DNA of 36,754 nucleotides, taken from positions 1-36,754 of the forward strand of contig JADHQS010000005.1 in NCBI GenBank assembly GCA_016777845.1, given 5' to 3'. Made by a program: the position numbers and the translations under genes. Below, one piece after another: positions 13,117 to 17,099 of the stretch; the stretch's first letter is position 1, and every line of letters begins with the position of its first letter. The stretch comes from Candidatus Actinomarina sp. (GTDB taxonomy: Bacteria; Actinomycetota; Acidimicrobiia; Actinomarinales; Actinomarinaceae). The notes below the pieces were generated by a model, which saw only the letters and a list, made by a program, of their open reading frames with translations, made no database searches and was not told the DNA's origin.

Positions 13117-13599
13117 ATGAAACGTTACTTGCCAGTATTTATCATTTTATTAATTTCTTGCTCATTTAGTGCTAATGAAGAAATGGAAAGTGAACTATTA
13201 GAAGTGGTGGCAAAATCTACAAATGCTATCACAGAAACAACTTTTGATTATTTAGACACATCAGAATCTGTCGTTACTGAGAATTTTACAGATAAAAAAA
13301 CTATTATAATTTTTTGGGCTGATTACTGAGGAATTTGCAGACGGGAGTTGCCTGTCGTGGAAAAAAAATTAGCTGACTTAACTGATGAATACGATGTTAT
13401 TGCTTTAGCTCATAGCCAATACGAACCAACAATGGAATGGGTTAATGAAAATTTAAATGGTGAACTAACAATAGGTTTCTCTACACCTGAATTAAGAGAC
13501 TATTTTAAGATTGTTGGTCAACCAATATCTATAGTTCTTGACACAAATGGTGAAATAATTTCTCGAACTTATGGAGAAATTGATTTAACTAATTTTTAA
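13117..13599 (+). CDS. predicted selenocysteine-containing thioredoxin-like (TlpA/ResA-type) lipoprotein, read through in-frame TGA at 13327-13329
   Basis: The two track ORFs (13117-13329 and 13348-13599) share one frame: MKRYLPVFIILLISCSFSA...KKTIIIFWADY-[TGA]-GICRRELPVVEKKLADLTDEYDVIALAHSQ...IVGQPISIVLDTNGEIISRTYGEIDLTNF*. Lipobox LISC; the TGA occupies the first Cys of CxxC; cis-Pro-like GQP is conserved. Confidence 0.85.
13334..13363 (+). promoter_or_regulatory. candidate bacterial SECIS hairpin
   Basis: RNA UUU-G-CA-GACGGG-AGUUG-CCUGUC-(G)-UG-G-AAA: 6-bp stem GACGGG/CCUGUC with 5-nt apical loop AGUUG, extended by CA/UG across a bulged G, and UUU/AAA across a G-G mismatch. Loop starts 16 nt after the TGA. 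Confidence 0.65.
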
Positions 13600-13664: not shown

Positions 13665-14699
13665 GTGAAAAAAACATTTTTTATTCTTCTAACACTCTCA
13701 CTTGTGTTTGTAGCATGTAGTGGAGCTGAGGAAGAAGTCGAAAAAATTACTTTTGGATTCGTTCCAAGTGCCGAACAGACTGATCTTCAAGACAACATCC
13801 AGCCATTAATGGATGTTCTATCTGAAGGTTTAGGTATTGAAGTGGAAGGATTTGTTACAAGTGACTACTCAGGTTTAATTGTAGCAATGGGATCCGGTCA
13901 AGCTGATATTGGTGCATTTAACACATTAGGTTATGTTAATGCTATGAATGCATATCCAGATTCTTTAGAAGCTATTGCTAAAGTAGTGAGATACGGTTCT
14001 GGTTCATATCATGGAACATTCTTTACAAATGATGCAAGTATCTGTAATGAGCCACCTGTAATTGGTGCTTTAGAGAATATTGATGGAACTGCAACTTTAG
14101 TCAAAGGTTCTGCTGACACAGCTCCTGATGTTAAAGCTCTTCAAGTCGGATGGGTTTTTGGAGATAATGGTTTAGAGCCAGATCCTGATCATGATGCTGG
14201 ACTAGCTTGTGAAGCTGATCTATCAGTAATGCTAGGTAAAACAGTTGCATTTGTTGAAGAAGGCTCAACGTCTGGTTATTTATTTCCTGCTATTCAGCTA
14301 AAAAATGCAGGAATAGATTATCAATCTGATTTTGATGTCATATTTGCTGGGTCTCACGATGCATCAGTTTTAGCTGTTTATAATGGCGATGCTGACTTTG
14401 GTATAGCATTTGATGATGCAAGAAGAAGTATTAGAAAAGAGTATCCTGATGTTGGCTCTAAAGTAATTGCTTTTAGCATTACGGAAGAAATTCCTAATGA
14501 TGTTGTAGCAGTACGATCTAACCTTCCAGAAGATATGAAAGAACAAATTTATCAAATTCTTAGTGATTATCTTGCAACTGAAGAAGGATTAGCTGTTATG
14601 GATGAAATTTATGGTTGGACAGATATCGTTCCAGCTGAAAATTCGGAGTTTGACATAGTTAAACAAGCAGCTGAAGAATTCGGGCTTTACGACGAATAA
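13665..14699 (+). CDS. phnD: PhnD-like (phosphonate/phosphite-type) ABC transporter substrate-binding lipoprotein
   Basis: GTG start after GGAGG; lipobox FVAC; FGFVPSAEQTDLQDNIQPLMDVLSE, GQADIGAFNTLGYV, KTVAFVEEGSTSGYLFPAIQLKNAGI. Confidence 0.88.
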   Translation: MKKTFFILLTLSLVFVACSGAEEEVEKITFGFVPSAEQTDLQDNIQPLMDVLSEGLGIEVEGFVTSDYSGLIVAMGSGQADIGAFNTLGYVNAMNAYPDSLEAIAKVVRYGSGSYHGTFFTNDASICNEPPVIGALENIDGTATLVKGSADTAPDVKALQVGWVFGDNGLEPDPDHDAGLACEADLSVMLGKTVAFVEEGSTSGYLFPAIQLKNAGIDYQSDFDVIFAGSHDASVLAVYNGDADFGIAFDDARRSIRKEYPDVGSKVIAFSITEEIPNDVVAVRSNLPEDMKEQIYQILSDYLATEEGLAVMDEIYGWTDIVPAENSEFDIVKQAAEEFGLYDE

Positions 14700-14721
14700 C
14701 ATAAGAAAATAGTTATTATTA

Positions 14722-14755
14722 TCAAGGGGTAGGAATCTACCCCTTGATTTTTTAT
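14722..14755 (+). terminator. intrinsic terminator between phnD and phnC
   Basis: 11-bp perfect stem TCAAGGGGTAG-GAAT-CTACCCCTTGA followed by TTTTTT. Confidence 0.85.
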
Positions 14756-14756
14756 T

Positions 14757-15524
14757 ATGATTAAATTTGAAAATGTAAATGTAACATATCCAGGTGGTGT
14801 TGTAGCTTTAAAAGATATCAATCTTGAAATTAAAGAGGGCGATTTCATAATTATTGTTGGTTTATCTGGTGCAGGAAAATCTACTCTACTTAGAACAATC
14901 AATAATTTGGTTAAACCATCAAGTGGAACTGTTTACCTTGAAGGTGCAGACGTTACGAATGCAAAGAAAAAAGAACTAAAACTAATCAGATCAAAAATAG
15001 GTATGATTTTTCAAACATTCAATTTGGTAAATAGATCAACCGTATTAAAAAATGTTTTAACTGGAAGATTAAGCAACGTATCAACTATTAAATCAATATT
15101 AGGACTTTGGCCTAAGGATGAAAAAAAATTAGCTTTTGAAGCATTAAATCAAGTTGAAATACTTGAAAAAGCATATGTAAGAGCTTCAAATTTATCTGGT
15201 GGTCAACAACAAAGAGTTGGAATTGCTAGAGCGCTTTCACAAAAGCCAAAAGTTATGCTTGCTGATGAACCAGTCGCTTCCTTAGATCCAATTACATCAA
15301 GAGTTGTTATGAGTTATCTTAAAAAAATTAATACAGAATTAGGTATTACAACTATTGTGAATTTACACTTTTTAGATTTAGCTAAAGAATTTGGTGATAG
15401 GTTAATTGGCCTAAGAGATGGCAAGCTTGTGTTTGATGGCAATGTTAACGAAGTTTCAGACGATGATTTTGAAAATATTTATGGTAGATCTATCAAATCT
15501 TCAGACCTAATCGGTGATGATTAA
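14757..15524 (+). CDS. phnC: PhnC-like ABC transporter ATP-binding protein
   Basis: Walker A GLSGAGKS, signature LSGGQQQR, Walker B KVMLADEPVASLDP. Confidence 0.92.
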   Translation: MIKFENVNVTYPGGVVALKDINLEIKEGDFIIIVGLSGAGKSTLLRTINNLVKPSSGTVYLEGADVTNAKKKELKLIRSKIGMIFQTFNLVNRSTVLKNVLTGRLSNVSTIKSILGLWPKDEKKLAFEALNQVEILEKAYVRASNLSGGQQQRVGIARALSQKPKVMLADEPVASLDPITSRVVMSYLKKINTELGITTIVNLHFLDLAKEFGDRLIGLRDGKLVFDGNVNEVSDDDFENIYGRSIKSSDLIGDD

Positions 15525-16299
15525 TATACCTCCTAAACCAAAAGCTTCTTACTTAGCAAAAATTGGTCTTCCATTTGCGTTTATGTTTTCTATTTTTTCT
15601 TTTAATATGATAGATTTTAACTTTTCAGATTTTCAAAACAATTTACAAAATCGTAAAATTGTAACTGAACCGTTATTTAATCCAAAATGGCAATGGGCAT
15701 GGGATAATACTTCTTCAGCACTGTTAGAGACAATCCAGATAGCAATACTAGCTAGTATTATAGGTTGTGCTATTGCACTCCCGTTATCCTTTTATGCTTC
15801 AAGAGCCACCAATTTAAATAAATTTTCATACTTTCTTTATAAATCGTTTTTAAATCTTGTTAGAACTATTCCTGATTTATTTTGGGCAATGATGTTTACT
15901 GTAGCTGTTGGAATTGGACCATTCGCTGGTGTGCTTGCTTTAGTAATGTTTTCATTAGCTATTATGGGTAAATTGTTGTCAGAAACTATAGACAGTATAG
16001 ATCCTGGTCCAATGGAGGCTGCAAAAGCAACTGGAGCTTCACACAACCAAACTGTATTTACATCTGCACTGCCACAAGTCTTACCAAATTTTACTGCCTA
16101 TTTTCTATATATATTTGAACTTTGTATTAGAGCGAGTGTAATCTTGGGGCTTGTTGGCGCAGGGGGTGTTGGAAGAATAATTGAGACTCAAAGAATTTTC
16201 TTAAGGTTTGATAGAATTTCTCCAATAATAGTAATAATCCTTGCTGTTGTAATTTTAATAGAACAATTTAGTGTTTGGATCCGAAAAAGAATATTATGA
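15514..16299 (+). CDS. phnE: PhnE-like ABC transporter permease 1
   Basis: EAAKATGASHNQ EAA-loop; GAGGVGRIIETQ; multi-TM. TGA stop overlaps the next ATG (ATGA). Confidence 0.88.
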   Translation: MMINIPPKPKASYLAKIGLPFAFMFSIFSFNMIDFNFSDFQNNLQNRKIVTEPLFNPKWQWAWDNTSSALLETIQIAILASIIGCAIALPLSFYASRATNLNKFSYFLYKSFLNLVRTIPDLFWAMMFTVAVGIGPFAGVLALVMFSLAIMGKLLSETIDSIDPGPMEAAKATGASHNQTVFTSALPQVLPNFTAYFLYIFELCIRASVILGLVGAGGVGRIIETQRIFLRFDRISPIIVIILAVVILIEQFSVWIRKRIL

Positions 16300-17099
16300 A
16301 TTTACCTAAACAACCTTTAAATCAAAAAATATTTAAATATTCAATAACATCATTAATTATTCTTGCTTCTTTATGGTCAGCTGCTGGATTAGAAATCACA
16401 TTAGATAGGATAATTGATGCGCCAAAACAAATTGGAATATTGGTAGGTGCAATGTTTCCTTTAGATCTTAGCCAAGAGGCTTTTAGTAGAATAATCCCTA
16501 AGGTTTTTGAATCTTTATTTATCGCTTGGGCTGGAACGGTTATTGGGTCATTTTTTAGTTTTCCTATATCGTTCCTTGCTGCGAATAACTTTACTAAAGG
16601 AATTGTGAGTAAAGCAACTAAACAAATCCTAAATATTATTCGTGCATTTCCTGAATTAATATTAGCCTTTATTTTCCTACCTATTACGGGATTGGGTCCC
16701 TTAACAGGAACACTTGCTATAGGAATTCACTCAATAGGAACTCTAGGAAAACTATCATCCGAAGTTATTGAAGGTATAGATGAAGGACCATTAGAAGCAA
16801 TAAAATCTTCCGGAGGATCTAAAATAAATGAGCTAACTTTTGGGATTATTCCTCAAGTAATGCCAACTATTACTTCTTATTGGCTGTATCGATTTGAAAT
16901 AAATTTAAGAGCATCTGCAGTTTTAGGTGTAGTTGGTGCTGGTGGCGTAGGTCAAGAATTAATTAACCAACTAAGATTTAGAGACTTCCCAAGAGCAGGT
17001 ACTGTACTTGTTTGCACAATAGTGTTAGTCCTTACAGCTGATGCTGTATCAGCAGCAATAAGAAACAGGATAATTAAAGGAAAATTAGTAAAAAGCTAG
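16296..17099 (+). CDS. phnE: PhnE-like ABC transporter permease 2
   Basis: EAIKSSGGSKINE EAA-loop, GAGGVGQELINQLRFRDF; start set at ATG 16296. Confidence 0.88.
   Translation: MNLPKQPLNQKIFKYSITSLIILASLWSAAGLEITLDRIIDAPKQIGILVGAMFPLDLSQEAFSRIIPKVFESLFIAWAGTVIGSFFSFPISFLAANNFTKGIVSKATKQILNIIRAFPELILAFIFLPITGLGPLTGTLAIGIHSIGTLGKLSSEVIEGIDEGPLEAIKSSGGSKINELTFGIIPQVMPTITSYWLYRFEINLRASAVLGVVGAGGVGQELINQLRFRDFPRAGTVLVCTIVLVLTADAVSAAIRNRIIKGKLVKS

Follow-up and report, generated by a model that had tools for sequence, protein, structure and literature searches.

A conserved candidate SECIS hairpin in the coding region of a predicted TlpA/ResA-like selenoprotein gene of Candidatus Actinomarina

Introduction

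Thioredoxin-fold proteins with selenocysteine (Sec) in a UxxC motif have been predicted before from marine sequence data, among them thiol-disulfide isomerase-like, TlpA-type and Redoxin selenoproteins (PMC1088965, PMC13188914). The published model of the bacterial SECIS element (bSECIS) has a loop of 3-9 nt with a G in one of its first two positions, an upper stem of 4-16 bp, a spacing of 16-37 nt and a minimum free energy (MFE) of -7.5 kcal/mol or lower (PMC13188914).

The window, that is, the whole stretch of 36,754 nucleotides that was analysed, comes from a Candidatus Actinomarina draft genome and holds a gene with one in-frame TGA followed by a hairpin. Ca. Actinomarina, also named OCS155 in the public records of close relatives and which we take to belong to the class Acidimicrobiia, counts among the most abundant marine actinobacteria and among those with the smallest genomes. 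The predicted product resembles the marine UxxC selenoproteins by description, as a thioredoxin-fold oxidoreductase with Sec first in UxxC. With the oxidoreductases ResA, TlpA, StoA and Etrx it shares the fold (Foldseek probability 1.00) and probably the extracytoplasmic location, but Sec here would replace the first catalytic Cys, and the structural matches have only 12-23% identity. Compared with the bSECIS consensus (PMC13188914), the spacing is the shortest that the model allows, and the N1-N2 pair across the loop is A with G or A, a non-standard pair. A search mainly of open-access literature found no paper linking Actinomarina or Acidimicrobiia with selenocysteine.

Results

The features discussed below are the following.

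13117..13599, + strand: predicted selenoprotein gene, TlpA/ResA-like with a thioredoxin fold; open frame with one TGA, Redoxin/Thioredoxin families, ResA/Etrx/StoA-like fold
13327..13329, + strand: in-frame TGA, predicted Sec codon at the first Cys position of CxxC (UGIC); 35/35 genus orthologues and alignment to solved thioredoxin-like proteins
13340..13356, + strand: candidate bSECIS core, 6-bp stem GACGGG/CCUGUC with loop AGUUG (13346-13350); pairing kept in genus and class, absent from Cys paralogues
13334..13363, + strand: lower-stem extension, UUU/AAA and CA/UG with a bulge and a mismatch; folds here, not a conserved part

The frame is open except for the TGA and terminates at a TAA. Reading through would give a product of 160 residues with Sec at residue 71, while the product truncated at the TGA has 70. 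The gene is flanked, according to Pfam, by recA-cinA on one side and a phosphonate-type ABC transporter on the other, and the order recA-cinA-selenoprotein-transporter is identical in the four long relatives checked. The transporter (13665-17099, + strand), composed of a substrate-binding protein, an ATPase and two permeases, begins 65 nt past the selenoprotein gene.

The 160-residue protein was compared with the Redoxin, Thioredoxin_8, AhpC-TSA and Thioredoxin families and matched all four, the Redoxin match lying above the curated cut-off and the Thioredoxin match at it. Its score against NCBIfam NF041054 (WAxxUGC_long selenoprotein) was 23.4 bits, below the curated cut-off of 300 bits. The TGA aligns with the first Cys of CxxC in solved thioredoxin-like relatives, and the active-site context in the genus is FWADY-U-G-x-C. 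The AlphaFold model (mean pLDDT 79, block means 83-96 across residues 41-150) places a strand at 61-67, the Sec at 71 and a helix at 72-87; the redox motif stands at the start of the helix that follows the first core strand, as in the thioredoxin fold of TlpA/ResA-like proteins. This model matches structures of ResA, Etrx, StoA, DsbF and CcmG, with Etrx, ResA, DsbF and StoA as the best PDB entries. Near the N-terminus, Cys15 is invariant in 21 aligned orthologues and lies within the lipobox-like stretch LLISC; the selenoprotein is therefore likely a membrane-anchored lipoprotein. The frame 3' of the hairpin is under purifying selection (dN 0.048 against dS 0.76 in the comparison with locus L010).

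The sequence-only reading had proposed the hairpin GACGGG(13340-13345)-AGUUG-CCUGUC(13351-13356), with a 6-bp stem and a 5-nt loop opening 16 nt after the UGA, inside the coding region. It is present exactly in that form, 16 nt were counted between TGA and loop, and the whole of it falls within the open frame. The rules that this reading had applied, a G at loop position 1 or 2 and 16-37 nt of spacing, agree with the published model (PMC13188914), to which the element conforms. The extension that it added through CA/UG and UUU/AAA fared less well: it folds here but is only 80% paired in the genus, hardly better than shuffles, and therefore only the 6-bp core and its loop are supported as the element. 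RNAfold on the 36 nt 3' of the TGA gave the hairpin plus the lower extension at -10.9 kcal/mol. Controls that encoded the same protein, with codons redrawn from the usage of the window itself, had a mean of -3.35 and a standard deviation of 1.57 kcal/mol; 0.07% of them were as stable and 0.7% formed all six pairs. The hairpin is thus far more stable than codon-resampled sequences, one of the two comparisons by which the sequence-only reading proposed to judge it. The other, retention of the stem among TGA-containing orthologues, also came out in favour of the hairpin, as described below.

Similar structures are not rare. The two strands of the window together have 1,512 TGAs, of which 13% were followed by an ungapped stem of at least 6 bp obeying the loop rules, and 2.7% also had an MFE of -7.5 or lower. 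Because about 2.7% of the window TGAs pass similar structural rules, the hairpin alone is no proof of function; we take its conservation to be the decisive evidence. An Rfam scan of the window returned tRNAs only.

The genome to which the window belongs has a tRNA-Sec with anticodon TCA (G000 C30) and a selD gene (G000 C30; L086:1233-2276, - strand) with an in-frame TGA of its own in the motif GSG-U-ACK, both expected of a Sec-decoding organism. Neither selA nor selB was found in this 77%-complete draft, where the best match to SelB was an EF-Tu-like protein of 407 residues. The two genes are adjacent in most genus genomes. Their neighbours, an Mrp-like ATPase gene beside selA and the gene beyond selB, are missing from the draft too, which contains only distant Mrp paralogues; the absence of selA-selB is for this reason best read as a probable assembly gap. 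The genus SelB carries a SelB-wing_3 domain. A full-length Actinomarina SelB (L077:4304-5983, - strand) adjoins selA and scores 194 bits against TIGR00475, whose cut-off is 242 bits. Pfam recognises only its GTPase and last winged-helix domain, and this SelB is divergent. Outside the genus, among the matches listed, SelA occurs in 30/30 genomes with a TGA homologue and in about 72/107 overall (hypergeometric 5e-7 among the matches listed, phylogeny ignored). No in-frame TGA was found in the AhpC-TSA family of eight genus genomes.

An orthologue was detected in 35 of 42 genus genomes, that of the window included, and all 35 have the TGA at the identical site. The seven genus drafts without the gene are incomplete (60-82%), so that loss and gap are indistinguishable in them. 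The six pairs are kept in each of the 29 distinct genus sequences (174/174 pair cells), the loop starts 16 nt after the in-frame UGA in all 29, and its sequence is AGUUG or AGUUA on a stem of 6 bp. Folding energies of the orthologues range from -7.2 to -19.0, a single one (L073, -7.2) narrowly missing the limit of the model, which the hairpin of the window passes. The third pair is G-C in one group and C-G elsewhere, and the swap comes with Glu for Arg/Gln at codon +5 and Leu for Val at codon +9. The pair was maintained while the amino acids changed on both arms, and the swap may represent a single evolutionary event. Codon usage follows the stem as well. Codon +6 is GAG in 29/29 sequences, codon +5 is CGG in 11/11 Arg cases, codon +9 is CTC in 11/11 Leu cases, and codon +8 is CCT or CCC. 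The rare codons GAG, CGG, CTC and GTC are fixed where pairing requires them, against the genome bias.

Other families of the class supplied 20 TGA-containing homologues. The same six pairs occupy the same place in 19 of them, and the loop opens with AG in all 20. Two belong to a different subfamily (WAPHUPTC), in which pair 2 is U-A instead of A-U. In the joint alignment of genus and class 99% of the cells pair. Changes on both sides occur at four of the six pairs, and the apical two, both G-C, are invariant. None of 500 shuffles and no slid register reached the covariation score of 0.414; the shuffles serve as a guide and not as a probability because the aligned sequences are related. The stem is absent from the Cys paralogues of the genus (n=14, found by tblastn), which form 1-4 of the six pairs at -2.0 to -6.5 kcal/mol. 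Pairing is in this way conserved in the Sec-encoding orthologues and missing from the Cys forms.

Discussion

The TGA, the coding constraint beyond it, the hairpin with its conservation, and the Sec genes of the genome or the genus were computed directly. Taken as a whole they indicate that the hairpin is almost certainly a genuine bacterial SECIS, situated in the coding region of a TlpA/ResA-like selenoprotein gene and directing Sec at UGA 13327-13329. By analogy with known SelB biology, SelB carrying GTP and Sec-tRNA(Sec) would bind the stem-loop 16 nt downstream as the ribosome meets the UGA, through its C-terminal winged-helix domain, which would contact the loop G (13347) and probably the U after it. 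Selenocysteine would then be delivered in place of termination. The product expected from this decoding is an extracytoplasmic, probably membrane-anchored oxidoreductase in which UGIC replaces CGIC; the same analogy underlies the proposed lipoprotein anchoring and redox activity. Counted against the SECIS interpretation were the lack of selA and selB in the draft, the genus SelB score below the TIGR00475 cut-off and the seven genus drafts without the gene.

The alternative that survives best, even so very improbable, is that the UGA is decoded in another way, through code reassignment or near-cognate suppression, and that the hairpin merely reflects the conserved peptide RRELPV. That peptide is indeed well conserved, and the apical G-C pairs never vary. 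However, synonymous choices are fixed against the genome bias, the favoured Pro codon CCA, for instance, never being used; amino acids change jointly with the pairs kept; and the stem is missing from Cys paralogues whose peptides are similar (QKEVPIV, QRELPVV). Both tRNA-Sec and selD are present in the genome, a single in-frame TGA is seen in this conserved gene, and TGA terminates another long frame in the window.

Still less credible is termination at the UGA followed by re-initiation of a second protein just downstream, with GGGAG of the stem as ribosome-binding site. The stem does contain GGAG, and TTG 13348 and GTG 13357 are in frame, but no ATG, GTG or TTG is conserved in frame within the first 30 codons (the best, a TTG, occurs in 23/35 and is otherwise TTA), and such a split would divide the active-site CxxC. 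That the TGA is a real stop in a decayed gene or a sequencing error, with a hairpin formed by chance, is just as implausible: the similar hairpins after about 2.7% of the window TGAs and the missing selA and selB would suit it, but the same TGA in 35/35 orthologues from independent assemblies, the purifying selection on the downstream frame and the compensated hairpin do not, and conservation rules out a chance hairpin or pseudogene.

In the SECIS interpretation the mechanism is known and conventional, and this gene with its element is a well-supported additional case. Ca. Actinomarina would have retained Sec decoding, its clients being SelD and a TlpA-like redox protein at the least, and would be selenium-using in principle. 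Standard annotation would split or truncate the selenoprotein gene at the TGA. With its clean covariation, the element is also a compact natural SECIS on which SelB recognition in actinobacteria could be studied.

We further considered whether the near-invariant GGAGUU(G/A)CC apex, found class-wide at minimum spacing, could be a SECIS dialect peculiar to this lineage. The divergent SelB of the group would read it, selD would likewise have a loop that begins with GU, and even ultra-small streamlined genomes would retain the dialect. This idea is speculative, and we regard it as possible but rather unlikely.

Downstream of the selD TGA, a first hairpin was discarded, its register being inconsistent by eye. 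A second one, with loop GUU or GUA, seems the better candidate on the basis of six distinct sequences. In the window's genome this candidate selD SECIS has the loop GUU about 33 nt downstream of the TGA, and its top pair is changed on both sides in 2/6 distinct genus sequences.

A covariance-model search of 20 genus genomes for more SECIS elements of this sequence type recovered only the same gene and two borderline matches with E about 0.09 (G036:C8:69774-69832 and G039:C4:71681-71727, loci L101 and L100), which may be further SECIS elements or may have arisen by chance. In the class as a whole the model gave one weak match although the class hairpins are alike, and it is therefore too sequence-bound for discovery. 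A second TGA-containing thioredoxin-like group was observed in the class, the WAPH-U-PTCRREAP subfamily (L120:482-535, - strand, and L121:280-333, + strand), which has at the same position an 8-bp hairpin of the GUCGGGA/UCCCGAC type.
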